A DNA stretch of 64,000 bases from Sulfurovum sp. (GTDB lineage: Bacteria > Campylobacterota > Campylobacteria > Campylobacterales > Sulfurovaceae). Under the pieces are notes generated by a model. It was not told the origin of the DNA. It worked only from the letters and a program-made list of their open reading frames with translations, and did not search any database. Below, piece by piece: positions 20,893 through 39,224 of the stretch. The stretch lies in assembly GCF_015493435.1 (NCBI RefSeq), contig NZ_WGDD01000048.1, forward strand, positions 1-64,000, in the 5' to 3' direction. The position numbers and the translations under genes are program-made. Within the stretch, counting starts at the first letter, position 1, and each line of letters opens with the position of its first letter.

Positions 20893-21417
20893 ATGAAAAG
20901 AACACTACTTGTTACAGCAGGTTTGCTCCTCTCCACACTGGCACTCTCCGCCAACAACAGCGGAGAAGAAATTTTCAAGGCAAAATGCAGTGCCTGTCAC
21001 CTGCTTCAGGCACCTGGAGCTATGTATAAACCGGGAACACCTGAGTTCAGACAGGCTATGAACGATCTTAAAGCACCGCCTATGGCCAAAGTTGCATCAA
21101 TGATCAAAATGAAATATGAAACCAAAGAAGCATTTGCCAAATTTGTAAATGACTACATCACAACACCTGATGCTTCAAAAACCGTTTGTATGAAAAATGC
21201 TGTAAAAGGATTTGGCTTGATGCCTGCGATCGGAAAATCAATGAGTACAGAAGAGAAAAAAACCGTCGCGGAATGGATATACAACAATGCCAAAGCAACA
21301 CCTATGATGAAAAAAATGAAATGCGCTGCAGGAAAATGCGGCGGAGGTATGATGAAAAATGCACCTGCCAAAGAACACACTATGAAATGTGCTCCCGGAA
21401 AATGCGGAGGGAAATAA
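20893..21417 (+). CDS. Periplasmic c-type cytochrome with Cys-rich MKCxxGKCGG tail repeats
   Basis: Signal peptide, CSACH heme motif, C-terminal MKCAAGKCGGG and MKCAPGKCGGK. Confidence 0.85.
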   Translation: MKRTLLVTAGLLLSTLALSANNSGEEIFKAKCSACHLLQAPGAMYKPGTPEFRQAMNDLKAPPMAKVASMIKMKYETKEAFAKFVNDYITTPDASKTVCMKNAVKGFGLMPAIGKSMSTEEKKTVAEWIYNNAKATPMMKKMKCAAGKCGGGMMKNAPAKEHTMKCAPGKCGGK

Positions 21418-21480
21418 GACGTATTTTTTCTGTCTTTCCCTTTTTCCCGCACGATATGCGGGGAAGCCTACTGTGGGAAA

Positions 21481-21996
21481 TTACGCTTTTTGATAGAATT
21501 TGACTTCGCCTTTTCCAAGGTTTTCCAATACATCTTTCGCTTTTTCCGCTGATATGGCATTACGTACAATGATCACAGTTTTACCATTCTTGATAAGATC
21601 GGCATAGCGTTTTGCCTCGCTTTCATCAATACCGATATCGATAAATCCGGCAATAATTGCAGCAATACCCCCCACGGTCGCCGCACCGCCAAGTGCTCCT
21701 GCAAGTGATGCAATAACAGGCCCTGCCGCTACAAGAGGACCAAAACCCGGAACCCATAGGAAAAATGCACCGGCGAGGAATCCCCAGATACCTCCCCACA
21801 AGGCACCCTGTTTTCCCCAGGTTAGGATATCTGTATTTTCTTTGTCAAGTTCAAAATCATCTTTGGGCTCGCCTCTTTCTCCTTTTCCCACAACAGAAAT
21901 ATCTTCTTTCAATACACCTGCTGCCAGCATGGCTTTCATTGCTTCCGCTGCTTCATCATGGTTGTCATAAACCGCTATCACTTTTTCTTTTGTCAT
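21481..21996 (-). CDS. General-stress/DUF1269-like glycine-rich membrane protein
   Basis: 171 aa, VIAVYDNHDEAAEAMKAMLAAGV..., glycine-rich central TM, AKRYADLIKNGKTVIIV. Confidence 0.55.
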   Translation of the reverse strand: MTKEKVIAVYDNHDEAAEAMKAMLAAGVLKEDISVVGKGERGEPKDDFELDKENTDILTWGKQGALWGGIWGFLAGAFFLWVPGFGPLVAAGPVIASLAGALGGAATVGGIAAIIAGFIDIGIDESEAKRYADLIKNGKTVIIVRNAISAEKAKDVLENLGKGEVKFYQKA

Positions 21997-22095
21997 AATA
22001 CTTCTCCTCTTGTCATTTTAATTTTGGATAAAGTGATTATATCATAAGTTTGTAAAAATCCATAAAAACACTCAACGGCAGTTGCGGCAGATATG

Positions 22096-22123
22096 CACAG
22101 TATATGCACACTATCCGGATACA
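22096..22123 (+). promoter_or_regulatory. Putative 11-bp direct-repeat operator and -10 for second DUF302 gene
   Basis: CACAGTATATGCACACTATCCGGATACA. Confidence 0.5.
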
Positions 22124-22155
22124 CTTCGGTTATCACATAGAATAAAGGATGATAG

Positions 22156-22542
22156 ATGATCTATAAAGTAGAAACTTCCAAAGATATTGAAACAGTCAAA
22201 TCGGAAATCGAAGCAAAAGCAAAAGCAGTTGGTTTTGGTCTGCTGCAAACCTATGAATTCAAAAAAATACTGCATGACAAAGGATACCCGATAGAGAAAG
22301 AGATCACTGTCTTTGAACTTTGCAATCCGTCGGGTGCACAACAGGCTTTGACACAGATCGCAGAGATATCAGCCTATCTTCCCTGCCGTATTTCCGTCTA
22401 TAAAGAAAGCGGTGCGACCAAACTGGCAACGATCGGACTTGAGGAGATCGTCAATACCGTTGATGTAAATCCGGAATTCAAATCTTTTATGACAATTCTT
22501 TTCCTCAACCTAAAGCAAGTCATGCACAGCTGGGATGACTAA
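22156..22542 (+). CDS. DUF302 family protein
   Basis: 128 aa, GFGLLQTYEFKKILHDKGYPIEKEITVFELCNPSGAQQAL...LPCRISVY. Confidence 0.85.
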   Translation: MIYKVETSKDIETVKSEIEAKAKAVGFGLLQTYEFKKILHDKGYPIEKEITVFELCNPSGAQQALTQIAEISAYLPCRISVYKESGATKLATIGLEEIVNTVDVNPEFKSFMTILFLNLKQVMHSWDD

Positions 22543-22569
22543 ACAAATATTTTTTACAAAGGATATATA

Positions 22570-22779
22570 ATGTATGGATTCGGACACGGATGGGGCATGG
22601 GTATGGGATGGGGATGGCTGCTGCCGCTGCTTCTCATAGCGATCGTCTATTATCTTTTCCAGAACAGAAAAACACAGAGGTCTTCCGCACAGGACATTTT
22701 GGACAAACGCTATGCCAGCGGAGGTATCAGCAAAGAAGAGTATGATGAGAAATCAAAACATTTAAAAGAAAATACATAA
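22570..22779 (+). CDS. SHOCT-domain small membrane protein
   Basis: AQDILDKRYASGGISKEEYDEKSKHL. Confidence 0.85.
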   Translation: MYGFGHGWGMGMGWGWLLPLLLIAIVYYLFQNRKTQRSSAQDILDKRYASGGISKEEYDEKSKHLKENT

Positions 22780-22792
22780 AAGGAGGATCGGG

Positions 22793-24496
22793 GTGCAACG
22801 AAGAACATTTATAAAGGGGACAGCTGCCGCCTCCCTTCTCGGGGTCACTGCCGTAAATTTAGAGGCGGGAACACCCCGGAAGGCACAAAACAGAAGCCGT
22901 ACGCTCAGCGGTAAAGAATTCTTTCTCGATATCGATTATACTACGGTCAATATCACGGGAAAGAAAGCAGTTGCTACCGCCATCAACGGACAGATACCGG
23001 GACCGACACTTGTCTGGCAGGAAGGCGACACGATTACACTGCATGTAACGAACCATTTGAAAAAATCTTCTTCCATCCACTGGCACGGTATTATTCTGCC
23101 CTTTGGGATGGATGGTGTTCCGGGTATCAGCTATAAGGGCATTGCACCGGGAGAGACTTTTACCTACAGATTCACAGTACATCAGCACGGTACCTACTGG
23201 TACCACAGCCATTCGGGCTACCAGGAACAGACAGGAATGTACGGTGCCATCGTCGTAAAACCGAAGAAAAAAGAACCTTTTCGTTACGACAGGGATTATG
23301 TCGTACTGCTTTCGGACTGGAGTGATGAAAAGCCGACTTCCATCTACCGAAAACTCAAGCAGATGAGTGACTACTACAATTTCAACCAGAGAACCGCAGG
23401 AGACTTCTTCTCCGAAGTAAAACAAAAGGGCTTGGCCAAAGCATTTAAGGCACGCAAAATGTGGAATCAAATGCGTATGAGCGACAGAGACCTCTCCGAT
23501 GTCACGGGATATACCTATACCTACCTGATGAACGGGAACAATCCGGCCACACAGTTCACTGCACTGTTCAAAAAAGGAGAAAAGATCCGTCTGCGTTTCA
23601 TCAACGGTGCGGCAATGAGTATTTTTGACGTACGGATACCTGGACTCAAGATGACTGTAGTTGCTGCCGACGGCAATCATATCAAACCCGTCAGGGTTGA
23701 TGAATTCCGCATTGGTGTGGCAGAAACCTACGATGTCATTGTTCAGCCGACAAGCAGCAAAGCTTATGCACTTTTTGCCCAAAGTATTGAGCGTTCAGGC
23801 TATGCACTTGGTTCATTGACACCCTCCGCAGACCTGCGTGTCCATCCGCCGAAAACCGATAAGCCGCAGCCGCTTACCATGGTAGATATGGGCATGGATA
23901 TGACCAAATCAGGTAAACAAAAAGGGATGAAAATGCCTATGAAAAAGTATAGATGGTCAGCTATGGAGCAAGAGAAATATCCTATTACCCAACTTCCTTC
24001 GGCCAGCGGTCCCCAAAGTACCATGAAAGCGATGGCCCCCCACTACAGACTTGAAGATCCCGGTGTAGGATTGCGGCACAACGGCCGAAAGGTTCTGACC
24101 TATGCAGATATGAAAAACCGTTATTCAACACGCAGAGAGAAGAGACCGGACAGAGAGATCATTTTACATCTTACAGGCAATATGGAACGGTATATGTGGT
24201 CGATCAACGGCATTAAATATGCCGATGCAAAACCGCTTGTTTTCCACTACGGAGAACGATTGCGCATTACATTCATCAACGACACGATGATGAACCACCC
24301 CATGCACCTGCACGGAATGTGGAGCGACCTGGAGACAGGCGATGACAATCATCTGGTAAGAAAACACACTGTTCTTGTACAGCCAGGATCAAAAATAAGC
24401 TATCGTGTTACGGTCGATGCCAAAGGGGCATGGGCCTATCACTGTCACCTGCTTTACCATATGGCAGGGATGTTCAGAAAAGTCGTTGTGGTTTAA
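22793..24496 (+). CDS. CopA-type multicopper oxidase (copper resistance), Tat-exported, GTG start
   Basis: MQRRTFIKG Tat motif, HWHGIILPFGMDGVPG, YWYHSHSGYQEQTGMYG, HPMHLHGMWSDLE, AYHCHLLYHMAGMF; AGGAGG upstream. Confidence 0.93.
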   Translation: MQRRTFIKGTAAASLLGVTAVNLEAGTPRKAQNRSRTLSGKEFFLDIDYTTVNITGKKAVATAINGQIPGPTLVWQEGDTITLHVTNHLKKSSSIHWHGIILPFGMDGVPGISYKGIAPGETFTYRFTVHQHGTYWYHSHSGYQEQTGMYGAIVVKPKKKEPFRYDRDYVVLLSDWSDEKPTSIYRKLKQMSDYYNFNQRTAGDFFSEVKQKGLAKAFKARKMWNQMRMSDRDLSDVTGYTYTYLMNGNNPATQFTALFKKGEKIRLRFINGAAMSIFDVRIPGLKMTVVAADGNHIKPVRVDEFRIGVAETYDVIVQPTSSKAYALFAQSIERSGYALGSLTPSADLRVHPPKTDKPQPLTMVDMGMDMTKSGKQKGMKMPMKKYRWSAMEQEKYPITQLPSASGPQSTMKAMAPHYRLEDPGVGLRHNGRKVLTYADMKNRYSTRREKRPDREIILHLTGNMERYMWSINGIKYADAKPLVFHYGERLRITFINDTMMNHPMHLHGMWSDLETGDDNHLVRKHTVLVQPGSKISYRVTVDAKGAWAYHCHLLYHMAGMFRKVVVV

Positions 24497-24506
24497 AGGA
24501 GTGAAG

Positions 24507-25190
24507 ATGAAAAAATTACTATTGGGTTTTACGGCAGCTTTGCTTTTTGGGCACACACTTTATGCAGCAGGCGCAGACGATCCGCTGCGTACCATGCTGC
24601 TTATGGATAAATTCGAGATCCTCAACAATGACGAAAACAGCCGTGAATGGGAAGGCAGTTTTTATGCCGGATACGATCTGGACAAACTTTATGTCTATTC
24701 TCAGGGATCTGCCACTGCCGACGGTCTGGACTGGAGTCAGAACGATCTTGTCTACTCCCGGGCCATCGCACCCTTTTGGGATATTCAGGCAGGTATCGCT
24801 TATGATAGGAACAGTGATACTTCAAGAACCTGGGGCGAGATCGCCATTGCCGGTCTGGCCCCCTACTTCTTTGAAACACGTGCAGCTCTCCTCCTCAACA
24901 ATGAAGGCAATATGGGACTGAGACTGGATGCCGAGTATGAAATGCTGTTTACCCAGCAGCTCATCCTGACCCCATCTCTGGAAGCGGACTTTTATACCAA
25001 AGACGACCCGCAGATGCGTACAGGTTCAGGACTCTCTGCCATAGAGGCAGGTTTGCGCCTTCGCTATGAGATCATCAGAGAATTTGCCCCCTACATCGGG
25101 ATAACATGGGAAAAGACTTTCGGCAGCACCCGCGACTACAATCCGGTAAACGAAACTTCTCTGCTCGCCGGGATCAGATTCTGGTTCTAA
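24507..25190 (+). CDS. copB: CopB-like outer-membrane copper resistance protein
   Basis: 227 aa, signal peptide, beta-barrel-like repeats, FAPYIGITWEKTFGSTRDY; follows CopA-type MCO. Confidence 0.85.
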   Translation: MKKLLLGFTAALLFGHTLYAAGADDPLRTMLLMDKFEILNNDENSREWEGSFYAGYDLDKLYVYSQGSATADGLDWSQNDLVYSRAIAPFWDIQAGIAYDRNSDTSRTWGEIAIAGLAPYFFETRAALLLNNEGNMGLRLDAEYEMLFTQQLILTPSLEADFYTKDDPQMRTGSGLSAIEAGLRLRYEIIREFAPYIGITWEKTFGSTRDYNPVNETSLLAGIRFWF

Positions 25191-25253
25191 TGAATAGACT
25201 ATTTGAAAATATATAGCTGATATTAATATTTTATGTTCTACAATTGAACTATC

Positions 25254-25700
25254 ATGAAAAAGACGACACAAAGACTGAAGAATGCAACGCTGGCTACTTT
25301 AAAAAGTTTACGGATGATAGCACCTATGCTTTTGGCTGTCATCGGTTTGGTGGGCCTCTTTGAAACGTATATTACACCTGAAATGATTCACACTCTTTTT
25401 AACGGGAAAGTCATTCATGATACGCTGATAGGAACAGCCGCAGGCAGCATTTCGGTCGGACAACCGTTTTTAAGCTATATTATAGGGGGCGAACTGCTCA
25501 AAGACGGCATATCATCCTACGCTGTCACTGCCTTCATACTCTCTTTCGTAACACTGGGGGTCATTCAGCTTCCTTTGGAATTTTCAATCTTCGGGGCAAG
25601 ATTTACCCTCATAAGAAATCTGCTCAGCCTGGTATTTGCCGTGATCATTTCCTGGGCGACAGCCTATACGCTCGAACTTCTTAACGGATATTTCTCATGA
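25254..25700 (+). CDS. Half-size permease subunit A (ArsP/DUF318-like)
   Basis: 148 aa, TM helices with GQPFLSYIIGGELLKDGIS. Confidence 0.6.
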   Translation: MKKTTQRLKNATLATLKSLRMIAPMLLAVIGLVGLFETYITPEMIHTLFNGKVIHDTLIGTAAGSISVGQPFLSYIIGGELLKDGISSYAVTAFILSFVTLGVIQLPLEFSIFGARFTLIRNLLSLVFAVIISWATAYTLELLNGYFS

Positions 25701-26203
25701 GCAAAAAAAAACAGATGAAAAACAGAAGCGGCTACATGATGCTGGCTGTTGTGGCAATCCTGTATGCTGTATTGTATTTTTTCAATGCCGATAAAATACT
25801 TTTGGCACTGAAGGCAAGTTTCCATATTTTAAAAATGATCGCACCGATACTGCTGATCGTTTTTTTCCTTATGGCGCTGCTCAATACCTTTTTAGATGAA
25901 AAAAATATCGCCAAACATTTAGGCAAAGAGAGCGGTCTCAAAGGATGGTTCATCGCATTGCTCGGCGGCATACTGAGTCATGGACCGGGATATATCTGGT
26001 ATCCCATGCTTCAGGACCTGAGAGCTAAAGGCGCCCTTGACGGACTTGTGGTTGCATTTATCTATGCAAGGTCCATCAAACTGCCATGGCTTCCTCTTAT
26101 GATAAGTTATTTCGGCCTCGCCTTTACCCTTGTACTGAGTCTCTACATCATCCTGGGTGCATTCATACAGGGTGTACTGACAAACCGGCTTGAAACACGC
26201 TGA
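25697..26203 (+). CDS. Half-size permease subunit B (ArsP/DUF318-like)
   Basis: 168 aa, GILSHGPGYIWYPMLQDLRAKGALDGLVVAFIYARSIKLPWLP; ATGA overlap with upstream gene. Confidence 0.6.
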   Translation: MSKKKQMKNRSGYMMLAVVAILYAVLYFFNADKILLALKASFHILKMIAPILLIVFFLMALLNTFLDEKNIAKHLGKESGLKGWFIALLGGILSHGPGYIWYPMLQDLRAKGALDGLVVAFIYARSIKLPWLPLMISYFGLAFTLVLSLYIILGAFIQGVLTNRLETR

Positions 26204-26329
26204 CGAAAACCGCTCATTGTGTTCAATATCGGTATGCCGGTATTTTCAGGGCATAACTTATTATTATTTTGTTAATCTTTCCTGATTATAATACCCTTGT
26301 TAAATCAATTATTTATTAAGGATAACCGT

Positions 26330-26704: not shown

Positions 26705-26727
26705 TTCTTTTTACCCATCGTTTTTCA

Positions 26728-26809
26728 AAGGCTCTACTTCTGCTACAGGAGTACAGCCTTCACACTACCATAATGCAGTGATCTTTCCTCCTGATCACCT
26801 GCAAGGCTG
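26728..26809 (+). other. Intergenic RNA-like element with alternative pairing
   Basis: AAGGCTcTACTTCTG-cta-CAGGAGTAcAGCCTT hairpin; the same CAGCCTT also complements downstream AAGGCTG enclosing TGCAGTGATC/GATCACCTGCA. Confidence 0.5.
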
Positions 26810-26867
26810 CCAGACACCCAAACGGTAACTGCATTCTATCCATATTTTCCGGAACCTTCCCGCTATG

Positions 26868-26927: not shown

Positions 26928-28124
26928 ATGCGCGTATTTCTCCTTACCCTTGTTAGTGCAGGCTTGCTACAAGCCCAAAGTATTAACCAACTGATTGACT
27001 ACTCACTGAAGAAACACCCTTCTCTGCTAACCATACAGCATCGTCTTTCCGCTATGGATGACCGCATCACAAAAAGCAGAAACTGGTCCAATCCGGAACT
27101 GGTACTGAACATCAACGATATCCAGTTTGATGACCCTACGGACCGTACACTCGAACCGATGCAGTATCAGGCCATCAATGTCAGGCAGCGCTTCCCCTGG
27201 TTTGGAAAGATCGATGCGAGAGAACATTTCACCAGGGCTCAGAAAAATGTTATTCTGGATTCGTATGACATTGCCAAAGTGAAGCTGGCCGAAGAAATCA
27301 GAAGCACTTCGTATACCATCCTCGAGATCAAAGAGCGTATTCGCATCGTTAGGCAGTACGAAAAACTTACCAAACAAAATATCTCCCTCTACGATGCCTA
27401 CACTGCAACGGACAAAATGAGCCACTCCAACAGTATGGCAGCAGAACTGATGCTATCACGGCTGCATATCAGAAAAGAACGATACAAGGCTGTACTGAAA
27501 AGCCAGGAGGCAAAACTTGCCTACCTTGTGCAGAAAAAAAACACCGTAGTTTCAGACAGGTTTAGGATCAATAAACCAAGATCGCTGGGCTACTATTTGT
27601 CACATTTGGGAAATAACCCGGCATACCACAGAACAGTCTCGCAAACCAGAGTGGCCAATGCCAACAGAGAGATGCAGGCTCTCGAAGTCAACCCGGATCC
27701 TTTTGTACAGGTGGGATATTTCAATCGTCAGGAGCATCCGGACTATGCCAGCATCTCCGTGGGCTTTTCTCTTCCTGTCTACGGTTCAGAAAAACTGGAG
27801 ACCGAAGCAGCGCGTAAAGATGCACTCGCAGCACAGAGTGCTTCGCTTGACTATCGTGATGCACTGGAAAGTGAAATACGCATCAACTATGCCAAAATGA
27901 AGGAAGCATACAGCATCTACGGTATCATCCAGAATGACAGTCTGCCAAAACTGCAGCATATGTTCGAGCTCAATGAAGCCTCTATCGAAAGCGGTGAAGA
28001 CCTCTTTACCTATACCAGTCTTTTGGAACAAAAACTTGATCTTGTAGAAGAAAGAACTGTAGCAAAAGCCGAATATCTCAGGATAAAAGCCAAATTAAAA
28101 TCACTCATTGGAGAAACAAAATGA
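26928..28124 (+). CDS. TolC/CusC-like outer membrane efflux protein
   Basis: 398 aa, signal peptide, coiled-coil OEP pattern, NPELVLNINDIQFDD. Confidence 0.85.
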   Translation: MRVFLLTLVSAGLLQAQSINQLIDYSLKKHPSLLTIQHRLSAMDDRITKSRNWSNPELVLNINDIQFDDPTDRTLEPMQYQAINVRQRFPWFGKIDAREHFTRAQKNVILDSYDIAKVKLAEEIRSTSYTILEIKERIRIVRQYEKLTKQNISLYDAYTATDKMSHSNSMAAELMLSRLHIRKERYKAVLKSQEAKLAYLVQKKNTVVSDRFRINKPRSLGYYLSHLGNNPAYHRTVSQTRVANANREMQALEVNPDPFVQVGYFNRQEHPDYASISVGFSLPVYGSEKLETEAARKDALAAQSASLDYRDALESEIRINYAKMKEAYSIYGIIQNDSLPKLQHMFELNEASIESGEDLFTYTSLLEQKLDLVEERTVAKAEYLRIKAKLKSLIGETK

Positions 28125-29323
28125 CCAGAAAGCTCATACTTTTACTTGCATTTTTCACACTCGCGGCACAGGCAGAAATGAAATGCGAATCCGGAAAATG
28201 TACCTCGGGGAAAGAAACCGGCACGAAAAATATACCTAAAAAAGTCAAAGCAGCCCCAAAAGAAAAAGCTAAAAGCACTTCAGCGGCCATGACACCGGAA
28301 GAACACGCTGCCATGCTGAAAAAAGAAAAGCAGAATGACATAAAGCCAAATTCCAAAAAAGAACAGGAAAAACGCAACAGACTTGTCATCGAGCAGCTTT
28401 TCAGTGTGCGAACAGTCAAGGTCAAACGTATGAAAGCCGCAAAAGAACAGATAAACTACGGCTACATCGTTGTAGAAGATTCACGCAGAGTGGATGTCGT
28501 ATCATGGTATGAAGGATACGTGGAAACACTGTATGCCGATACACGGTACAAAAAAGTAAAAAAAGGGGAAGCCCTTGCAAAGGTTTACTCCCCGGAAGTC
28601 TACAAAGCCAAGCAGGACTACCTGAACTCCATCCGATTCAATGCCCAGCGTTCTGTACCGGGCATGCTCAGAGGTGCCAAAGAGAAACTGAGGCTGCTCA
28701 ATGTCAGCCCAAAAGAGATCGAGCGGATCACTGCTACAGGAAAAGCAGATGAATATACAACCATCTATGCACCGATATCGGGTTGGATCTTTAAAAAGAA
28801 TCTCAACCAGGGATCAAGTTTCAAAAAACAGGAAACACTGTTTGAAATCGTCAATCTTGAAAAGGTATGGCTTGAAGCAAAGCTGTTTCAGAATGAATTG
28901 AAAACACTCGATATCTTACAAAATTTTACCGTCAGAGCAGAAGGCGTACCTGCCGAATTCAAGGCAAAAAAAGCATTGCTGTACCCCAAACTGGACACGA
29001 AAGAGGCGACTGCAACCCTGCGTCTTCTCATAAACAATACCAAGGAAGCACTCAAACCGGGTATGTACGCCAAAGTATATGCTTCCGGACAGGCAAAAAC
29101 ACAGCTGGTCATTCCCCGCACTGCGGCCATGAGAAAAGACGGCAAATGGTATGCTTTCATTGCCACAGCCTTTAAAGGAGAATATGAACCGGTCCAGATA
29201 GAACTCGTACCGCTTGACAATCAGTATTTCACCGTAAAAAAAGGCTTATCCGAAGGAGAGAACATTGTCAACAATGCCCTCTTTATGATGGATTCAGATG
29301 CCCAGATAAACAGTATTTATTAA
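28121..29323 (+). CDS. cusB: CusB-like RND periplasmic adaptor with N-terminal MKCESGKC motif
   Basis: 400 aa, VEDSRRVDVVSWYEGYVETLYADTRYKKVKKGEALAKVYSPE, TTIYAPISGWIF. Confidence 0.88.
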   Translation: MTRKLILLLAFFTLAAQAEMKCESGKCTSGKETGTKNIPKKVKAAPKEKAKSTSAAMTPEEHAAMLKKEKQNDIKPNSKKEQEKRNRLVIEQLFSVRTVKVKRMKAAKEQINYGYIVVEDSRRVDVVSWYEGYVETLYADTRYKKVKKGEALAKVYSPEVYKAKQDYLNSIRFNAQRSVPGMLRGAKEKLRLLNVSPKEIERITATGKADEYTTIYAPISGWIFKKNLNQGSSFKKQETLFEIVNLEKVWLEAKLFQNELKTLDILQNFTVRAEGVPAEFKAKKALLYPKLDTKEATATLRLLINNTKEALKPGMYAKVYASGQAKTQLVIPRTAAMRKDGKWYAFIATAFKGEYEPVQIELVPLDNQYFTVKKGLSEGENIVNNALFMMDSDAQINSIY

Positions 29324-29365: not shown

Positions 29366-29480
29366 ATCATTGACAGGACGTATTTTGAACGAAGTCCAAA
29401 ACACTGCGTTAGCACTGGGCTTGCTTCAGCAGCAGGCTCATGTGACTGGCCACATTTCAACTAAAGGCTGTACAAAATGA
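29343..29480 (+). CDS. Small ORF (45 aa) sharing its start with CusA, overlapping the cusA start codon
   Basis: MIEKLIALSLTGRILNEVQNTALALGLLQQQAHVTGHISTKGCTK*; ATGA overlap with cusA. Confidence 0.4.
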   Translation: MIEKLIALSLTGRILNEVQNTALALGLLQQQAHVTGHISTKGCTK

Positions 29481-32400
29481 TAGAAAAACTGATAGCCTTT
29501 AGTGTCAAAAACCGTTTTCTGGTTCTTATGGCAACCCTTTTCATTATCATGGGCTCTATCTGGTCTATGAAACATACACCGCTGGATGCCCTGCCCGATC
29601 TTTCACCACCGCAGGTGATCGTCCAAATTACATGGAAAGGGCAAAGCCCCGAGATCATCGAAGATCAGGGAACCTACCCGCTGGTCTCGCAGTTTCTAGC
29701 CATTTCCAACATCGATACGGTACGGGGATTCTCCACGTATGAAAATGCGCTGATCTATATTATTTTCAAAGAGGGTACAGACCTCTATTGGGCAAGATCA
29801 CGTGTGCTTGAGCAGCTCGCTTCCATCCAGAGTCAGCTTCCTGACGATATGGAAATCACACTGGGACCTGATGCTTCAGGTGTCGGCTGGGCATATGAAT
29901 ATGCTTTGACATCCAAAACAAAGACCCTCGAAGAACTGCGTACTTTGCAGGACTACTACTATAAGTACGCATTGATGGGTGTTGATGGTGTCTCTGAAGT
30001 AGCGACTGTCGGCGGTTTCATTCCCACCTATCAGATCACGGTCAACAATGATGCACTGGTCCAGTACAACCTCTCTATCAAAGACGTGGCACGTACCCTT
30101 AAAGAGAACAACAATGATACCGGCGGACGTATCGTGATACAGAACGGTTATGAATGGATGGTACAGGCAAAAGGCTATATTAAAGACCTCAATGAAATAC
30201 GAAACCTTGTCATTACCACCAAAGGCGGCGTACCCTTGACACTGGGAGACATAGGGCGTGTCGAAAAAGTACCTGCTGCACGGCGCGGTATGGCAGATCT
30301 TAACGGCGAAGGCGAAGTGGTAGGCGGCATCGTGATGCTGCGCTACGGCGAAGATGTCTACAGTGCGCTTCAGCGTATTAAAGCCAAAATGAAAGAACTC
30401 AAGGTAGACGGTGTCGATGTCGTTACTACCTATGACCGTTCCGAACTCATAGGCAAAGCAGTCGATACCCTCAAGGGTACCCTCATTGAAGAAAGTATTA
30501 TCGTGGTCATCATTATCGGGCTTTTCCTGATGCACCTGCGATCCTCGCTTATTGTGCTGATCGTTCTACCTCTCACTATCGGTCTGACATTCCTGCTGAT
30601 GAAGCTGTTCGGGATCGGGTCCAACATCATGTCTCTCGGGGGAATCGCCATTGCCATCGGTGCCATGGTCGATGCTTCCATTGTCATGATAGAAAATGCC
30701 CACAAAGCCATACACAAAGAGGAACATAGACGGGAACGTTCTCTGACCGACAAAGAACGTATCTCTACTATCGTGTCGGCATCACAGGTAGTCGGCCGTC
30801 CCATTTTCTTTGCATTGGCGCTTGTCGTCGTCTCATTTTTGCCCATCTTTGCACTTTCAGGTCAGGAAGGATTGCTCTTTACGCCGCTGGCATTCACCAA
30901 AACCTTCGCAATGACTGCAGGTGCACTGCTCGCTGTCACACTGGTACCGGTACTGATGATCTATTTTGTCAAAGGAAAGATCATTCCCGAATCAAAGAAC
31001 CCGCTGAACCGCTTTTTTATCTGGCTCTATCATCCCATTCTGATATACGGCCTCAAATTAAAATATCTGGTCATCGCTATTGCTGCCGGACTGCTTATGC
31101 TGGCCGTACCGCTTTACCAGAAACTCAACTGGGAATTTATGCCTATGCTCGATGAGCAGACGGTCATGTATATGCCTGTGACACCCTACGGTATTTCCAT
31201 AGACCAAAGCAAGGCACTGACACAGAAGACCGACAAGATCATCAAAAGTTTTCCTGAAGTTGCAACAGTCTTCGGAAAAGGGGGACGTGCAAATTCTGCA
31301 ACCGACCCTGCACCGCTCGGCATGATAGAAACCATCATTACGTTCAAACCCAAAGACCAGTGGCCCAAAGGTATGACAACGGAAAAACTGATGGCTGAGA
31401 TGGACAAAGCGCTTCAGGTACCTGGACTGGTCAATTCCTGGACCTACCCGATCAGAGGGCGTATCGATATGCTGCTTTCAGGTATCAGAACCCCTCTGGG
31501 GATCAAACTATACGGTAAAGATGCCAAAGGATTGCAGAAAGTTGCACACCAAATCGAAAATACACTGCGTAACCTTAAAAGTACACAATCCGTTATTTCC
31601 GATCAGGCAAGTGCCGGTTTCTTTATTGATATCGATATTGATACAGAAGCACTCAAGCGCTATAACATCAGCAAATCTGTCATTCTTGACTATACATCCG
31701 CTGCGATCGGAGGGAAAAAAATAACGACCATGTACAAAGGCCTGGAGCGTTACCCTATCGCACTTCGTTTTGAGGAAGATGAGCGTAGGAACCTTGATGA
31801 GATACGAAACATCCAGGTGAAAACACCCCTCGGTTTCGTTCCGCTTTCGACTTTTGCCAAAGTAACATACAGACAGAGTGCTTCTGTCATTAAAAGTGAA
31901 ATGGCAACACCGGTAACCTTCATTTACATCACACCGAAACTCGGTATGAGTGTCGTTACCTATAAAGAAGAAGCGATCAAAGCCTTGAAAAATATCAAAC
32001 TGCCGGCAGGCTACTACATCGAATGGGCCGGCCAGTCCGAATATCTTGAATCTGCCATGAAGAAGATTACCTGGATCGTTCCGACTGTACTGCTGGTAAT
32101 CTTTGTGCTTATTTATTTTGCATTGGGCTCCATGGTACCGACACTGATCGTCTTTTTTACACTTCCTTTTGCCTTGCTTGGAGGCTTCTTTTATGTAGAT
32201 ATACTGCACTTCAATATGAGTATCGCCATTATTGTCGGTTTCCTTGCGCTGCTCGGTGTGGCTGCAGAAACGGCCATTGTCATGATCGTCTATCTCCAGG
32301 AGAGTGTCGATGAAGTCAAAGCAAGAAGAGGTGAAGCCTATGACGAGAAAGATCTTAACAATGCCATTTATGAAGGTGCTGTACAGAGGGTCAGACCCAA

Positions 32401-32590
32401 ACTCATGACAGTGTTCGCCATTCTCGCAGGTTTGCTTCCCATTATGTATACACATGGTGTGGGCTCTGAAGTCATGCAGCGGATCGCCGCACCGATGATA
32501 GGCGGAGTTGTAAGCTCTGCTGTGCTAAGCTTACTACTCATACCGATCTTTTACGAAATGTATGAAAAACATAAATTAAAGAAAAAATAA
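29477..32590 (+). CDS. cusA: CusA-like heavy-metal efflux RND transporter
   Basis: 1037 aa, TPLDALPDLSPPQVIVQ, GAMVDASIVMIENAHK, GVAAETAIVMIVYL. Confidence 0.95.
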   Translation: MIEKLIAFSVKNRFLVLMATLFIIMGSIWSMKHTPLDALPDLSPPQVIVQITWKGQSPEIIEDQGTYPLVSQFLAISNIDTVRGFSTYENALIYIIFKEGTDLYWARSRVLEQLASIQSQLPDDMEITLGPDASGVGWAYEYALTSKTKTLEELRTLQDYYYKYALMGVDGVSEVATVGGFIPTYQITVNNDALVQYNLSIKDVARTLKENNNDTGGRIVIQNGYEWMVQAKGYIKDLNEIRNLVITTKGGVPLTLGDIGRVEKVPAARRGMADLNGEGEVVGGIVMLRYGEDVYSALQRIKAKMKELKVDGVDVVTTYDRSELIGKAVDTLKGTLIEESIIVVIIIGLFLMHLRSSLIVLIVLPLTIGLTFLLMKLFGIGSNIMSLGGIAIAIGAMVDASIVMIENAHKAIHKEEHRRERSLTDKERISTIVSASQVVGRPIFFALALVVVSFLPIFALSGQEGLLFTPLAFTKTFAMTAGALLAVTLVPVLMIYFVKGKIIPESKNPLNRFFIWLYHPILIYGLKLKYLVIAIAAGLLMLAVPLYQKLNWEFMPMLDEQTVMYMPVTPYGISIDQSKALTQKTDKIIKSFPEVATVFGKGGRANSATDPAPLGMIETIITFKPKDQWPKGMTTEKLMAEMDKALQVPGLVNSWTYPIRGRIDMLLSGIRTPLGIKLYGKDAKGLQKVAHQIENTLRNLKSTQSVISDQASAGFFIDIDIDTEALKRYNISKSVILDYTSAAIGGKKITTMYKGLERYPIALRFEEDERRNLDEIRNIQVKTPLGFVPLSTFAKVTYRQSASVIKSEMATPVTFIYITPKLGMSVVTYKEEAIKALKNIKLPAGYYIEWAGQSEYLESAMKKITWIVPTVLLVIFVLIYFALGSMVPTLIVFFTLPFALLGGFFYVDILHFNMSIAIIVGFLALLGVAAETAIVMIVYLQESVDEVKARRGEAYDEKDLNNAIYEGAVQRVRPKLMTVFAILAGLLPIMYTHGVGSEVMQRIAAPMIGGVVSSAVLSLLLIPIFYEMYEKHKLKKK

Positions 32591-32694: not shown

Positions 32695-33090
32695 ATGAAC
32701 CATACAAAAATCTTATCACTCTCACTGCTCACTATCACTCTGATACTATCCGGCTGTTCAGACAAAGAAAAAGAAAAATCCCTCACCGAAGGCGGTATGA
32801 AATGCGGCGCGGGGAAATGCGGTTCAAGTATGGTCGACGGCTCTGCTGTACTTGTCAAGAAAAAAGTGAATATTCTTGATCAGATGAAAAAAGATGACAA
32901 ACGGCGCGACTGTGTCCTCAAGGCCAAAACAACCAAAGCACTGTACAACTGTGTACGTGACCCGAAAACAGGCAGGCTGACCGTTAACGGAAATGTCCAT
33001 GCGGCACCGTCAACAGCAAAAAAGGCACTTAAAAAAGAAACCAACAGTACGATGAAGTGTCAAGCCGGTAAATGCAGTACAGGAAAATAA
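32695..33090 (+). CDS. Lipoprotein with N- and C-terminal MKCxxGKC motifs
   Basis: 131 aa, lipobox LILSGC, MKCGAGKCGSS and MKCQAGKCSTGK. Confidence 0.75.
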   Translation: MNHTKILSLSLLTITLILSGCSDKEKEKSLTEGGMKCGAGKCGSSMVDGSAVLVKKKVNILDQMKKDDKRRDCVLKAKTTKALYNCVRDPKTGRLTVNGNVHAAPSTAKKALKKETNSTMKCQAGKCSTGK

Positions 33091-33470: not shown

Positions 33471-33576
33471 TGTAAATCCTTTAATATTGGTTTGTAAGCC
33501 GCTGATAATTTCTTACCAGCAACTTATGAAGTGTATATAATATAACTCTTTGACTTAAACTTATATGAATAATAAG

Positions 33577-33891
33577 TTAACAGCTTGGTACGTTACCTGA
33601 ATCAGATCCATACTCATGTGCGAAATCATATACATCATTGATATATTTCTTTTTCAACTTAAGGCCCGGGCAGATTTTTGCAGCTTCTTCCGCGAATTTA
33701 CCGGCACCTTTGATCTTTTCCCACTCTCCCTGAGTGTGTTTTGCAGCAAATTTTGCACCGTTGAAACCGCATGCAGCTTTCATTTTCTTCATGTAAATCT
33801 TTTTACCTTTATTTACATTGGCAGAAGCAGTAGTAGAAACCACAGCCAGTCCAAGAAGTGCAGCAACTGCGAGTTTTGTCATTTTTGTCAT
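33577..33891 (-). CDS. Exported cytochrome-like protein lacking CxxCH (paralog 1)
   Basis: Signal peptide; GKKIYMKKMKAACGFNGAKFAAKHTQGEWEKIKGAGKF...KICP...C-terminal Cys. Confidence 0.6.
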   Translation of the reverse strand: MTKMTKLAVAALLGLAVVSTTASANVNKGKKIYMKKMKAACGFNGAKFAAKHTQGEWEKIKGAGKFAEEAAKICPGLKLKKKYINDVYDFAHEYGSDSGNVPSC

Positions 33892-33925
33892 TGTTCATCC
33901 TTTTGTAAAATTTTAAGACAGCAAG

Positions 33926-33955
33926 ATAATAACATGAAATTGTGAAAAGATTGTG
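33926..33955 (-). promoter_or_regulatory. Putative 11-bp direct-repeat operator and -10
   Basis: Minus strand CACAATCTTTTCACAATTTCATGTTATTAT. Confidence 0.4.
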
Positions 33956-34012
33956 AAGAAAAAGAAAAAATGTGAAGCAGCTTTCATAGAACTGCTTCAG
34001 GAAGTTACATAT

Positions 34013-34339
34013 TTAACACTTCGGAACGATACCGTCACTTGCATATTTATGTGAAAATTCATAGACATACGGCCACCAGGATTTTTTGATCTTTTTGACA
34101 TTGAGTCTTGGACAGATCTTTTTTGCTTCGGCCTGAAACTTTCCGCTGTCATAAATATCTTCCCATTCTGCACTGGTATGTGTCCGTGCAAACCTCACAC
34201 CGGAAAAACCGCATTTCTTACGAAATTTCTTTTTAAAGATCTTCTGGCCTTTCTTGGCAGTGGCGCGTGCCATCGATACTGTCGGCACACTCATTGATAC
34301 AAGCAGCGCAACCGCTGCCATCCCTATCAGTTTTCTCAT
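34013..34339 (-). CDS. Exported cytochrome-like protein lacking CxxCH (paralog 2)
   Basis: Aligns with 33577..33891: KCGFSGVRFARTHTSAEWEDIYDSGKF...KICP...VPKC. Confidence 0.6.
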   Translation of the reverse strand: MRKLIGMAAVALLVSMSVPTVSMARATAKKGQKIFKKKFRKKCGFSGVRFARTHTSAEWEDIYDSGKFQAEAKKICPRLNVKKIKKSWWPYVYEFSHKYASDGIVPKC

Positions 34340-34387
34340 TGGTACTCCTTGTTTTATATAAAATTATATAATATAGAAATATTGTAT

Positions 34388-34723
34388 CTACTTCAACTTG
34401 TTAAAAACCTTAAATTTATCCCAATAGATATCGACTGCTTCATCCAGCTCCTTGGGTGTCAGTGTACTTTTTTTCTTGATCCCAAAGTTATCGATGAAAA
34501 GTGCCGACATCACCGAAATACTCCTGTTGGGATATTTCAAATAGTGTTTTATACCTGCTTTGACATTCTGTTCTCCGCTGTAAACCAGCAGATATTCTTT
34601 GAACATCTGCTGCAAAGAAGTCGGCAGATCCTTATGACAGGGAATACAGTTACGTTCATAGATATTCTGTGCAGACAGCATGTTCACAGACAGCATAATA
34701 AAAAATAATATTTTAAGTGTCAT
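34388..34723 (-). CDS. Small exported c-type cytochrome-like protein
   Basis: Signal peptide then NIYERNCIPCHKDLP; start placed at MTLKILFF. Confidence 0.7.
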   Translation of the reverse strand: MTLKILFFIMLSVNMLSAQNIYERNCIPCHKDLPTSLQQMFKEYLLVYSGEQNVKAGIKHYLKYPNRSISVMSALFIDNFGIKKKSTLTPKELDEAVDIYWDKFKVFNKLK

Positions 34724-34753
34724 TGGGTTTCTCCAATCTGATTTGATTAATAA

Positions 34754-34916
34754 TTTGCCTTCACGGCTGCACTTCGTTCCGACCGTTTCGGTTCCGAATC
34801 TAAAAACGTGAAGCAGTTCACGTTTTCTTACGCTTTTGCCTTCACGGCTGCACTTCGTTCCGACCGTTTCGGTTCCGAATCTAAAAACGTGAAGCAGTTC
34901 ACGTTTTCTTACGCTT
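34754..34916. repeat. Perfect tandem duplication, two copies, 81-bp unit
   Basis: TTGCCTTCACGGCTGCACTTCGTTCCGACCGTTTCGGTTCCGAATCTAAAAACGTGAAGCAGTTCACGTTTTCTTACGCTT twice, no differences. Confidence 0.97.
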
Positions 34917-34917
34917 C

Positions 34918-36105
34918 TCACCATGTGAGTACCATTCTTGTTCCTTCTTGTACTTTGGAATGCACCTCTATCGTTATATGATACTCATCAAGTATCTTTT
35001 TGACAATGCTCAAGCCGACCCCAAAACCGCCTTCACTCTGATTGAAACGCATATAACGGTCAAAAATGAACGGTATCTTTTCTTCATTAATGCCTACACC
35101 CGTATCCCATATTTCCAGTTTCCCGATACGCAGCCTGATACCGATCTTGCCTCCTCTTTTATTGTATTTGATCGCATTGGAGATAAGGTTGTCGATCACC
35201 CGGGTGACTTTCTGTTTGTCTGCATGGATGATCACATTGTCAAGGTCGAGATCAAAATGCAGATGCTTGGTCTGGGCCATGGCGGCAAAATATTCGATAC
35301 GGTTCCGTATCAGCCCCTGCAGTTCTATTTCTTCATCATTGTAGTTTTTCTCCTGTTCAAGGGTCAGGTACGTCAAGTCACGGTAGAGATGCGAAACCGT
35401 TTTAGCCGCAATATTGATGCGGTTCAGCTTTTTTTTGTTCTTCTCCGCCATGACTTCGGTATCCATCATTTCAATATTGGTCAAAATGGTCGAGAGCGGT
35501 GTGTTGAGCTCATGCGTCGTATCTTTAATGAACCGGTCAAGCAGCATAATGGAATCACGCATCGGTTTGAGAAAAAGCCTTGCCAAAACAAGACCGAACA
35601 TCATAAAGAATATAAAAGCCAGCATACCGTACCCGACAATACGTTTCAGGGCTTCGCTCCGCCATGCAGTATCTTCTTTCACTTCGATAATAAGATATTT
35701 TGTACCAAGATAATAGGTATCGAGCAGTTTGACAAAATGGACATAGTGGTTACTCAGATAGATCTCTTCATTGAAGTGGACATTTCCGTCTTCAAGCAGA
35801 GAAAATATTTTTTTATGCTCAATATCGTAAATAGCTGATTTGAAGCGGGGATCACGCGGATAAGTGGTACGTTCGGGAAAAAAGTAATGCAGCACTTTAA
35901 GACGTTTGGTCTGAATATAGGCATACTTGGAAAGCTCGGCACGCTGATTGGAGAACATCAGCTTTTCCTGACTCTGATAGTAAAAGAGTGACAGCAGTGT
36001 AATAAGCAGGATCACCAGTGCCGTATAGAGTGCCAAAAATCTTAAAAGAGATTTTTTTTCACTTCTTAGCAGTGAACTTGTATCCCTGTTTTTTGATACT
36101 AACAA
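34918..36105 (-). CDS. Sensor histidine kinase
   Basis: THELNTPLSTILTNIEMM, WDTGVGINEEKIPFIFDRYMRF; start codon uncertain. Confidence 0.9.
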   Translation of the reverse strand: MLVSKNRDTSSLLRSEKKSLLRFLALYTALVILLITLLSLFYYQSQEKLMFSNQRAELSKYAYIQTKRLKVLHYFFPERTTYPRDPRFKSAIYDIEHKKIFSLLEDGNVHFNEEIYLSNHYVHFVKLLDTYYLGTKYLIIEVKEDTAWRSEALKRIVGYGMLAFIFFMMFGLVLARLFLKPMRDSIMLLDRFIKDTTHELNTPLSTILTNIEMMDTEVMAEKNKKKLNRINIAAKTVSHLYRDLTYLTLEQEKNYNDEEIELQGLIRNRIEYFAAMAQTKHLHFDLDLDNVIIHADKQKVTRVIDNLISNAIKYNKRGGKIGIRLRIGKLEIWDTGVGINEEKIPFIFDRYMRFNQSEGGFGVGLSIVKKILDEYHITIEVHSKVQEGTRMVLTW

Positions 36106-36730
36106 TTCTTTCCTTACCGATGATCTTTCGAAGATTCTTTATATAGGTACGAAGTGCCGTATCGCTTGGCTCTTCATCATAATCCCACAAATGTGTATAG
36201 ATGCGTTCATGAGAAAGAACCTCTCCTTCCTTCTTGACAAAAAGTTTGAGCAGGCGCGATTCCTTGTTGCCCAGAGAAACACTTTGTCCGTCAATGACCA
36301 GTTCTGCATTCTTCGTGTCGTAAAAAACAGTGTCATCTATCTTTATCATCTCTTTTGACTCATGGTAAAAACTGCGCTTGAGCAGTGTTTCAACACGTAT
36401 TTTGAGTTCTTTCAATGCAAACGGCTTGCGGACATAGTCATCACAGCCGCTCTCAAATCCTCTTTCAAGGTCATCCACAGAATTCATAGACGTGATAAAG
36501 ATCGCCGGAGCGACAACCCCCTCTTCTCTGCTCTCTTTCAGTAGTGCCAGACCATCCATACCGGGGACATTGATGTCAAGCAGCAAAAGGTCATATCTGC
36601 TTTCATAGAGTTTCTCCTGTGCTTCATGTCCGTCATAGACGGAAACAACTTCGTATCCTTCCTCTTCGAGGAACTCTGTTACGGTCTCATTGAGATTGGC
36701 ATCGTCTTCAAGCAGCAGGATCTTAGACAA
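36059..36730 (-). CDS. OmpR-family response regulator
   Basis: MSKILLLEDDANLNETV receiver and winged-helix C-terminus. Confidence 0.93.
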   Translation of the reverse strand: MSKILLLEDDANLNETVTEFLEEEGYEVVSVYDGHEAQEKLYESRYDLLLLDINVPGMDGLALLKESREEGVVAPAIFITSMNSVDDLERGFESGCDDYVRKPFALKELKIRVETLLKRSFYHESKEMIKIDDTVFYDTKNAELVIDGQSVSLGNKESRLLKLFVKKEGEVLSHERIYTHLWDYDEEPSDTALRTYIKNLRKIIGKERIVSIKKQGYKFTAKK

Positions 36731-37151
36731 ACTGTTTCACCCAGCTTTCGAGCCTGCCGGCACTCAGGGCACCGCTGACCTGGTCTACCTGTTTACCGTT
36801 CTTAAATACCATCAGGGTCGGAATACTGCGTATTCCATACTGTGCACCCAGTGCCTGTTGTTCTTCCGTGTTGACTTTAAGGAACTGTGCCTGCAGAGGC
36901 ATCGAAAGTGCCACCTCTTCAAATGCCGGTGCCATCTGTCTGCACGGTCCGCACCAGGGTGCCCAGAAATCCACCACGACAGGAATATCCGAATTGGCCA
37001 GAAATATCCCCAGCTTGTTCGCATCGACTGAAACCGGCTTGCTGTCCAGAAGCGATTTTTTACAGGCTCCGCAGTTGGCTTTGGTGTAATGGTCCTTTTT
37101 GGGTATTCTGTTTACTTTCAGACAATGCGGGCATACTACATTTATATTCAT
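36723..37151 (-). CDS. trxC: Thioredoxin 2-type protein with N-terminal zinc ribbon
   Basis: VVCPHCLKVNRIP..CGACKKSLLD, DFWAPWCGPCRQMAPAFEEVA. Confidence 0.92.
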   Translation of the reverse strand: MNINVVCPHCLKVNRIPKKDHYTKANCGACKKSLLDSKPVSVDANKLGIFLANSDIPVVVDFWAPWCGPCRQMAPAFEEVALSMPLQAQFLKVNTEEQQALGAQYGIRSIPTLMVFKNGKQVDQVSGALSAGRLESWVKQFV

Positions 37152-37167
37152 GGTAAAACCTCCGATC

Positions 37168-37218
37168 ATTTTATGATATATTTTATTTTAAAAATTATTA
37201 TAGCACATATCATAAAAT
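37168..37218. promoter_or_regulatory. 12-bp perfect inverted repeat upstream of trxC-like gene
   Basis: ATTTTATGATAT (37168-37179) / ATATCATAAAAT (37207-37218). Confidence 0.5.
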
Positions 37219-37310
37219 AAAAAATGAACTGAAGTTGCATTTGCAACACACTATGTATGAGTATTCTTAGTATATTATTGTTTCTCTCTCATGTATATTT
37301 TTCCATACAA

Positions 37311-37511
37311 CTATCTATCTCCCAGCGGGTTGTCACTTCGCTTTTTTATTTTTCTCTCTTGTTCCTCGTCTATTTGAGGCTGTGAGAATTCTACTTTTCC
37401 GTAAATAATACATCCTCTGCATCCGGGGTCACAGACATGCCCCAGTTTCATGCACCATTCTTTGATATCGCCGTTCTTTCCCATGAACTGACATCCCCAT
37501 CCGCTTGCCAT
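37311..37511 (-). CDS. Small Cys-rich hypothetical protein
   Basis: 66 aa, WGCQFMGKNGDIKEWCMKLGHVCDPGCRGCIIYGKVEF. Confidence 0.65.
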   Translation of the reverse strand: MASGWGCQFMGKNGDIKEWCMKLGHVCDPGCRGCIIYGKVEFSQPQIDEEQERKIKKRSDNPLGDR

Positions 37512-37636
37512 TTTTGAGTCCTTTTTATCTTTTGGTTTTTATCTTTTGCTGAGTGGTACCATGGAGCACAGCGCTCCTACGGGCGCTTCAATGTAAAAGC
37601 ATACCGGCATCCTCCATCACCCCTTTCCCATCATTT

Positions 37637-37912
37637 TCAATATCTGATTTCGAAACCGTCCGTATTGAACACTGCATCATCGATGATCTCATGGCTGATC
37701 CCCTCGACACTGCTCAGAGGCGACCCCTCTTTGAGTATTTGCATGACTGTATCGAAATCATCATCAAAAATTTCTGCCACTACTTCCACAGTACCATCCG
37801 GAAGGTTCCGGATGTACCCTTTGAACTGTTTTCTCATCAGTGCCTGTGAAACGAACTTCCGGTAGAACACACCCTGCACCCTGCCCTGAATGATAAATCT
37901 GTACCATTCCAT
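37637..37912 (-). CDS. acyP: Acylphosphatase
   Basis: IIQGRVQGVFYRKFVSQ, GYIRNLPDGTVEVVAE. Confidence 0.95.
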   Translation of the reverse strand: MEWYRFIIQGRVQGVFYRKFVSQALMRKQFKGYIRNLPDGTVEVVAEIFDDDFDTVMQILKEGSPLSSVEGISHEIIDDAVFNTDGFEIRY

Positions 37913-37915
37913 CTT

Positions 37916-38389
37916 CTATGCCACCCTGCACTCATGTTTGAGTTCCTGTAAAAATTCGATAATACGCAGCTGAAAGAGTGCTTCGTCATCCTCTTCATCC
38001 ATACATTCATGCAGCTGCATCAAAAGGCCGATATCGATCTTTTCGCAAAAGCGCTTTACCTCTTTGACTTCCCTGCGTACCTGTGCGATCAAATGTTCAA
38101 AGTCCAGCCCGTTATTGGTCACGATCTTTGTATGGTATTCATAGACTGTATCTATGAGCAGCTCAGCCCGCTCCTGGTTTTCCGAGTAGATCGTATGGGC
38201 GATCTCTTTGAGTTTCTGCTTTTCGCATTCATTTATTTCATCATCCGTAGAGATCATCAGGGTTAACAGTTTTGCACGAAATTCAAGAGAACTGTTATGA
38301 TATACCAGCAATTCCCGAAACATTTTCATGACACTTCGTTTAAAAGTTTTAAGCATTATTTTCCTTGCGCATAGATGACTTAACACCAT
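37916..38389 (-). CDS. Hypothetical protein
   Basis: 157 aa; no family recognised; start uncertain. Confidence 0.5.
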   Translation of the reverse strand: MVLSHLCARKIMLKTFKRSVMKMFRELLVYHNSSLEFRAKLLTLMISTDDEINECEKQKLKEIAHTIYSENQERAELLIDTVYEYHTKIVTNNGLDFEHLIAQVRREVKEVKRFCEKIDIGLLMQLHECMDEEDDEALFQLRIIEFLQELKHECRVA

Positions 38390-38438
38390 TTTAACAAAAA
38401 AAGACTATAGTTTTATAATTTTTAGTCAAAGAGAGAAA

Positions 38439-39224
38439 ATGAACGATATTGATCTGCTCGTTATTTTAAGTACAGCCTTTTTGGGGAGTGTCGGACATTG
38501 TATCGGTATGTGCGGGGGTATCGTCGTTGCCTACAGTTCCACCAAAATAGACCACAAAGCTTCATGGGCACGTCAGACCATCTCGCATCTCGCTTACAAT
38601 TTTGGCAGGGTAACGACCTACTCGGTCATCGGTGCGCTCTTCGGGCTTCTGGGAAAAGCCATTGCATTTACACCTGAAACAAAAGGAGTACTTTTTTTGC
38701 TGACCGGTCTTTTAATGGTACTCGCCGGCCTTTCACTCGTAGGCAATCTCAAATTCCTCAACTCGGCGGAGTGGTCCATTTCCAAACACAAGTGGTATCA
38801 TACCGCATTTAGAAAACTGATCGGAGACCAGTCCCTCTGGAGTTTTTATCTGCTGGGAATGCTGAACGGGATCATCCCCTGCGGGCTGGTCTATTCGTTT
38901 GCCATTTTTGCCGCCAGTACAGCCAGCCCGCTTTGGGGAGCCATCGTTATGGCAACTTTCGGGCTGGCGACCATTCCTGCACTCTTTTTTCTCGGAACCG
39001 TCACCAAATTCCTGCAAAAAGGTTCTCTGCGCGGCACGATGATGAAGCTTGCTGCCATGCTTGTGATCTTCTACGGTTTCTACACCCTCTACAAAGGATA
39101 TCGATTTATCTCCCACCCCCAGGAGATGCAGCAAATGATGAACAGTATGCAGACAGGCAGCGTCAAAAGCAAGATAGAAGGCAAGTGCGGAGGCATGAAG
39201 TGTGCTCCGGGGAAATGCGGGTAA
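38439..39224 (+). CDS. Sulfite exporter TauE/SafE-like (DsbD_2-type) membrane protein with Cys-rich tail
   Basis: LGSVGHCIGMCGGIV, GMLNGIIPCGLVYSF; C-terminus EGKCGGMKCAPGKCG. Confidence 0.85.
   Translation: MNDIDLLVILSTAFLGSVGHCIGMCGGIVVAYSSTKIDHKASWARQTISHLAYNFGRVTTYSVIGALFGLLGKAIAFTPETKGVLFLLTGLLMVLAGLSLVGNLKFLNSAEWSISKHKWYHTAFRKLIGDQSLWSFYLLGMLNGIIPCGLVYSFAIFAASTASPLWGAIVMATFGLATIPALFFLGTVTKFLQKGSLRGTMMKLAAMLVIFYGFYTLYKGYRFISHPQEMQQMMNSMQTGSVKSKIEGKCGGMKCAPGKCG

Follow-up and report, generated by a model that had tools for sequence, protein, structure and literature searches.

Within the 64,000-nucleotide stretch of Sulfurovum sp. contig NZ_WGDD01000048.1 analysed here (positions 1 to 64,000; the window), an eight-residue motif, MKCxxGKC, recurs in four unrelated exported or membrane proteins that lie in or near a copper island. 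We consider it probable that MKCxxGKC(G) is a modular, portable ligand tag for Cu(I), or for soft metals, that is carried, probably unmodified, by copper proteins of the cell envelope; the metal binding, the unmodified state and the transfer of metal are what we infer.

A recurrent cysteine tag on envelope proteins

Six copies of the tag were found in the window, all on the plus strand and in frame within four open reading frames (ORFs; Table 1), as the first-pass annotation had located them, and 100 dinucleotide shuffles of the window gave an expectation of 0. The carriers had been described as unrelated, and their Pfam assignments agree: PF13442, PF16576, PF13386 and, for the lipoprotein, no match. 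Six copies proved an undercount for the organism as a whole, since a pattern search of the whole genome (2.16 Mb, 99.6% complete) returned 11 MKCxxGKC sites in 8 proteins, each exported or membrane-bound. The five sites outside the window are spread over four contigs. Contig 3 has one in a small Cys-rich protein and contig 22 one in a NosL-domain protein, whose gene has a second NosL gene and ABC genes for neighbours; a helical protein of contig 26 is tagged at both ends, and on contig 29 the carrier is a small protein encoded next to an HMA chaperone. The looser pattern KCxxGKC gave 14 sites in 9 proteins and brought in another small Cys-rich lipoprotein, also on contig 3, while the reversed patterns, used as a genome-wide control, gave 0 sites for both forms. 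A match to the looser pattern on contig 2 was set aside; one frame there starts CGNGKCG and then stops, outside the longer ORFs. A literature search for the tag strings found no prior description, its sole match being an unrelated fish phylogeny (GAGKCG).

Across 298 Campylobacterota genomes the tag was present in 37, compared with one match to the reversed pattern. Five of the 37 were removed, the match being a short non-coding ORF or due to chance (four genomes of family f2 with MKCHFGKC, and one match with a stop codon), which leaves about 32. The tag is mainly confined to two families, apparently Sulfurovum- and Sulfurimonas-type bacteria, and all 7 genomes of the window's own genus have it. 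At least ten unrelated folds are tagged: CusB, two kinds of cytochrome c, NosL, PCuAC, YtkA, an HMA lipoprotein, DsbD_2, an EF-hand protein, a DUF4395 membrane protein, the lipoprotein of the window type and numerous small Cys-rich proteins. Nearly all tags (88/90) lie close to a terminus, in the first 50 residues or the last 40. The end used can change, one YtkA-type protein being tagged N-terminally (locus L036) and another C-terminally (L076); in a PCuAC of the Sulfurimonas family the tag is on the C-terminal tail. By a crude hydrophobic-segment score, 68 of 73 carriers passed as having a signal peptide, versus 154 of 424 background ORFs, and the five that failed comprised one chance ORF and four signal peptides that are borderline by eye. 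Neighbours of the tagged genes are mostly copper genes, including a nos-type cluster and an HMA chaperone, with a multicopper oxidase beside the tagged cytochrome, a P-type ATPase and CusA of a CusCBA pump beside the tagged lipoprotein, Sco1 beside tagged PCuAC, and ccoN beside DsbD_2 (an ortholog in genome G116). Pattern search, signal scores and neighbourhoods together bear out the proposal that the tag is modular, sits on exported or membrane proteins and is tied to copper genes.

The conservation of the tag was clearest for CusB, whose orthologs were gathered with the core sequence alone, the motif being excluded from the query. All seven orthologs of at least 58% identity carry the tag right behind the signal peptide; below that level, a 52% ortholog lacks it, a 34% one has MQCGAGKCG, and more remote ones have none. 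Among the seven, the six fixed positions of the tag are 100% identical and the codons differ, as they also do between the copies of the window, where synonymous differences had already been remarked upon. Identity in the surrounding linker is 27% over the 20 residues before the tag and 24% over the 40 after it, compared with 65% in the core. This invariance within diverged linkers, together with the varying codons, supports selection on the tag peptide. For the lipoprotein, a search with the whole protein, tags included, gave 11 good matches, of which all have the N-terminal tag and 8 the C-terminal one; the other three are missing the whole tail. With the cytochrome core as query, every close ortholog found, in either family, had retained the tag. 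The cysteines, whose loss in orthologs the first-pass annotation had named as a possible refutation, are thus kept in close relatives of CusB, the lipoprotein and the cytochrome.

Orthologs without the tag were also informative. Several untagged cytochromes have Met/His/Cys-rich tails at the tag position, and DsbD_2, found in 114 of 121 genomes of the phylum and usually untagged, often ends in a tail of soft-metal type (LLNCCESED, LLHCCD, ILQCH, MHQMQDSHS). From these we reason that the tag is one type of soft-metal tail standing in for a different type. The same tails bear on the idea of a label that one shared partner docks to or recognises, with metal binding secondary. The tag keeps K and G fixed as well as M and C, which exceeds the needs of a ligand set, and it is attached to unrelated folds, but no partner was found, and the differing Met/His/Cys tails point to ligand content as what matters, not to a specific label; we regard such a role as very unlikely.

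Outside the phylum, the matches listed were dominated by PyrK-type iron-sulfur proteins; MKCGxGKCG occurs commonly there in cytosolic proteins of the PyrK/hydrogenase-gamma type. The tag might then be a PyrK-type [2Fe-2S] motif, or a meaningless convergent Cys motif. PyrK proteins are cytosolic, however, and continue GxC...C with two more cluster-binding cysteines, whereas the tags of the window lack a third and a fourth Cys so spaced and their carriers are exported. With zero reversed-pattern sites in the genome and the invariance within diverged linkers, we hold both forms of this explanation to be exceedingly improbable, and for the window we consider it refuted by the genome and phylum pattern counts, the conservation and the terminal placement on exported proteins. 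The earlier concern that the motif might be common in cytosolic proteins therefore divides in two: no cytosolic carrier occurs among the coding matches of the phylum, but beyond it cytosolic PyrK-type proteins commonly have the string. Separately, two Bacteroidota lipoproteins (L146, L205) have repeated or C-terminal EGKCG/MKCGEGKCG tails, which suggests a wider spread of the tag beyond the phylum.

Table 1. Tagged proteins with their tags, followed by other copper island genes (positions in the window)
Feature	Position	Strand	Support
c-type cytochrome, 174 aa, Sec signal, CxxCH, two-tag tail	20893..21417	+	PF13442 E 5e-9
Tag MKCAAGKC(G), cytochrome tail	21316..21339	+	pattern search, shuffles
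Tag MKCAPGKC(G), near cytochrome C-terminus	21382..21405	+	pattern search, shuffles
CusB-type periplasmic adaptor of CusCBA efflux pump	28121..29323	+	PF16576 (HlyD_D23) E 1.4e-51
Tag MKCESGKC, directly behind CusB signal peptide	28178..28201	+	pattern search, shuffles
Small lipoprotein downstream of CusA, tag at both ends, C-x12-C core	32695..33090	+	no Pfam match
Tag MKCGAGKC(G), near lipidation cysteine of lipoprotein	32797..32820	+	pattern search, shuffles
Tag MKCQAGKC(S), C-terminal on lipoprotein	33052..33075	+	pattern search, shuffles
Six-helix membrane protein, DsbD_2 family, C-terminal tag	38439..39224	+	PF13386 E 1.3e-51, 176 bits
EGKCGG half-motif just ahead of DsbD_2 tag	39177..39194	+	ORF translation
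Tag MKCAPGKC(G), extreme C-terminus of DsbD_2 protein	39195..39218	+	pattern search, shuffles
P-type ATPase, YHS and heavy-metal-binding domains	16087..18483	-	PF00122, PF19335, PF04945
Multicopper oxidase, directly upstream of tagged cytochrome	19381..20817	+	PF07732/PF07731
Second multicopper oxidase	22793..24496	+	PF07732/PF07731/PF00394
CopB outer membrane copper protein	24507..25190	+	PF05275 E 7e-70
TolC/CusC-type outer membrane protein	26928..28124	+	PF02321 E 3e-19
CusA-type RND pump	29477..32590	+	PF00873 E 2e-215

A proposed Cu(I) exchange site

The spacing M-x-C-x4-C offers one thioether and two thiolates, which in terms of coordination chemistry is a sensible set of ligands for Cu(I). 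HMA/Atx1 proteins likewise bind Cu(I) through an MxCxxC motif with a Met-x-Cys start and a second Cys, but the tag has C-x4-C rather than C-x2-C, lacks the ferredoxin-like fold and sits on a disordered terminus; no window tag protein gave an HMA Pfam match, and one carrier elsewhere has both HMA and the tag. A closer parallel in position is E. coli CusB, whose disordered N-terminus binds Cu(I) via M21, M36 and M38 and is loaded by CusF (PMC6235853). The tag occupies the corresponding place in the adaptor of the window, with the difference that three Met serve there and a Met and two Cys here, in a form common to many other proteins; nor was a CusF homolog identified here, the tagged lipoprotein standing in its place.

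Based on this ligand set and on the position of the tag where E. coli CusB has its N-terminal site, we propose a capture-and-exchange site. On the disordered ends of unrelated envelope proteins that work on copper by carrying, oxidising, inserting or exporting it, the tag would provide an additional site, exposed and quick to exchange. Periplasmic Cu(I) captured there would be handed on, either to the metal site of the same protein or to another protein next in line. The two-tag lipoprotein behind CusA would be a likely CusF-like donor, and the multi-copy small Cys-rich proteins could serve as buffers. The usual view is that each copper chaperone docks to a single partner; if the proposal is true, sharing one portable ligand module among pump, cytochromes, chaperones and buffers would amount to a different organisation of metal traffic.

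Several points weigh against this proposal. Copper binding by the tag is something we infer, and the thiols of an exported tag may be oxidised to disulfides. Ligand-rich tails are known from the copper chaperone PCuAC, but these are His/Met-rich and bind Cu(II) (PMC13006917), where the tag is a fixed 8-residue Cys/Met module; moreover, the His/Met tail of the PCuAC protein AccA is dispensable in vivo (PMC13006917), so tails of this kind can be accessory. Some carriers, namely a Spy-like helical protein and an EF-hand protein, have no established copper role.

The metal may also not be copper alone. In Nitratiruptor, a neighbourhood of a regulator, a cytochrome c, an SO_0444-type transporter and TolC is induced by Cd (log2 4.3) and by Cu (2.4) (PMC10092412), and the neighbourhood of tagged cytochromes here resembles that cluster, in gene content only. 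Because the Nitratiruptor cytochrome answers more to Cd than to Cu, the tag might serve soft metals more widely, as a general thiol site for Cd, Zn, Ag, Hg and Cu, or else as a redox-active dithiol for envelope stress, without specificity for copper. The Sulfurimonas-type tagged cytochrome, which is accompanied by an ArsR-like regulator, an ArsP-type permease and a TolC-like protein, would fit such a role. Most carriers, however, belong to copper-specific families (NosL, PCuAC, CusB) in copper loci, and the strictly conserved Met two residues ahead of the Cys suits Cu(I)/Ag(I); we judge a site that is not copper-specific to be quite unlikely. A DUF302-like protein is also encoded near the Sulfurimonas-type tagged cytochrome (L077, 3786-4163).

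Relation to MNIO-modified precursors

The tag resembles the HvfA, captophorin and Buf_EGKCG precursors in Sec export, in the spacing K-C-x-x-G-K-C-G and in its copper context (PMC13097082, PMC12452194). The thiooxazole substrate FonA contains AKCGEGKCG (SGEAKCGEGKCGEK) (PMC13097082), the spacing of which equals that of the tag, and related KCxxGKCG repeats bind Cu in modified form (PMC13097082). N-terminal hydrophobic segments, as expected of such Sec-exported precursors, are present on the carriers, and the small multi-copy proteins of the present genome share the DoxX neighbour, a DoxX gene on contig 3 being flanked by two small Cys-rich genes. The tag differs in having Met where those precursors have Glu, Gly or Ala before K-C, in occurring singly or doubly on large unrelated proteins and not on a dedicated precursor, and in belonging to a genome without MNIO or DUF2063. 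A small protein of the present genome scored 25 against the HvfA model, the cut-off of which is 95, while Sulfurimonas-type small proteins pass the cut-off of the KCGExKCG_twice model.

The first-pass annotation had noted that the window has no MNIO gene, which is correct and extends to the whole genome, where MNIO (DUF692, PF05114), its partner DUF2063 (PF09836) and YcaO are all absent. Its suggestion of a copper tag, possibly post-translationally modified, stands as regards modularity and the KCxxGKCG spacing of HvfA/captophorin, and loses ground through the absence of these three enzymes and partners. Among the 298 genomes, MNIO scored above the cut-off in 13, and only one, G060, has both MNIO and the tag, so that 36 of the 37 motif genomes are without it. 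In G060 the tag lies within a small MNIO precursor whose gene directly precedes that of MNIO; the precursors of other MNIO-bearing relatives typically have [G/A]KCGAGKCG, with no Met before KC. Since the thiooxazole-forming enzyme is missing, the cysteines of the tag are most likely unmodified.

It could still be that the tag is a captophorin/HvfA-type substrate whose cysteines are turned to thiooxazoles or similar groups by an unrecognised enzyme, whole proteins being modified; Antoine et al. suggest that MNIOs may modify long proteins (PMC12452194). The shared spacing with FonA, the tagged precursor of G060, the DoxX gene between small Cys-rich genes, which is typical of such clusters, and a conserved neighbourhood of GMC/gluconate-dehydrogenase and glutamate-synthase-like flavoenzymes all speak for this, but the genome has no DUF692, DUF2063 or YcaO, nearly all motif genomes are without MNIO, and most MNIO-bearing relatives have Gly or Ala before KC. 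We therefore think it unlikely. Two related points also weigh against an unmodified Cu(I) tag: another enzyme could still modify it, and copper binding by the best-matching motif studied so far follows its modification by MNIO, so that an unmodified tag may behave otherwise in binding.

According to Antoine et al., HvfA-type precursors rarely occur without MNIO and may then work unmodified (PMC12452194); the Sulfurovum- and Sulfurimonas-type lineages are a large exception to the rule of precursor with MNIO. We advance with considerable doubt the wider idea that a lineage of Campylobacterota has one short peptide, copied or converged from captophorin-type repeats and working without MNIO, as a common Cu(I) exchange site on most of its envelope copper proteins. 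Cu(I) would then pass from one identical tag to the next among proteins of different folds, namely the efflux pump, cytochromes, chaperones and oxidase-assembly proteins. MNIO-bearing and MNIO-less relatives with a near-identical motif offer a natural test of what modification adds. Caution is also warranted in motif-based annotation, as database models call some MNIO-less small proteins oxazolone/thioamide-modified metallophores.

The small HvfA-like Cys-rich genes with DoxX lie near genes for gluconate-2-dehydrogenase subunit 3 and a GMC oxidoreductase (L024 on contig 3, 4745-5700; L078, 4479-11403; L081, 3962-8938). This neighbourhood is conserved in MNIO-less Sulfurovum- and Sulfurimonas-type genomes, the latter adding a glutamate-synthase-like flavoenzyme.

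Tagged genes and their surroundings in the window

The ORF of the tagged cytochrome starts 75 bases downstream of that of a multicopper oxidase. Against the NCBIfam model of the CusB subfamily, the adaptor gave an E value of 1e-35, below the model cut-off, and its HlyD_D23 domain protein adjoins the RND pump and the outer membrane protein, the arrangement that CusCBA membership requires. The tagged membrane protein downstream had been called TauE/SafE-like, but its best Pfam match is DsbD_2, with no TauE match up to E 0.01. Its tail is predicted to be periplasmic by a positive-inside reading made by eye, and the half-motif ahead of its tag recurs in most tagged DsbD_2 orthologs.

The tagged lipoprotein is a new family. 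Its AlphaFold2 (AF2) model has a mean pLDDT (per-residue confidence) of 48, with both tags in low-confidence segments, and a search for plasmid carriage of the protein gave no match. The core of the lipoprotein (32860-32960) and the small tagged protein of contig 29 (L027, 5899-6222) have a common C-x12-C pattern with similar surrounding residues, and the two are possibly the same small helical domain. Adjoining the lipoprotein, on the minus strand at 33577-34339, are two adjacent genes whose small exported products (104 and 108 aa) are paralogs of each other; these share three conserved cysteines, gave no Pfam match and are both kept in G219 (L068). Elsewhere in the copper island, two adjacent ORFs at 25254-26203 make up a split permease of the ArsP_1 family, one matching its N-terminal half and the other its C-terminal half, and two DUF302 proteins are encoded at 22156-22542 and 18616-19194.

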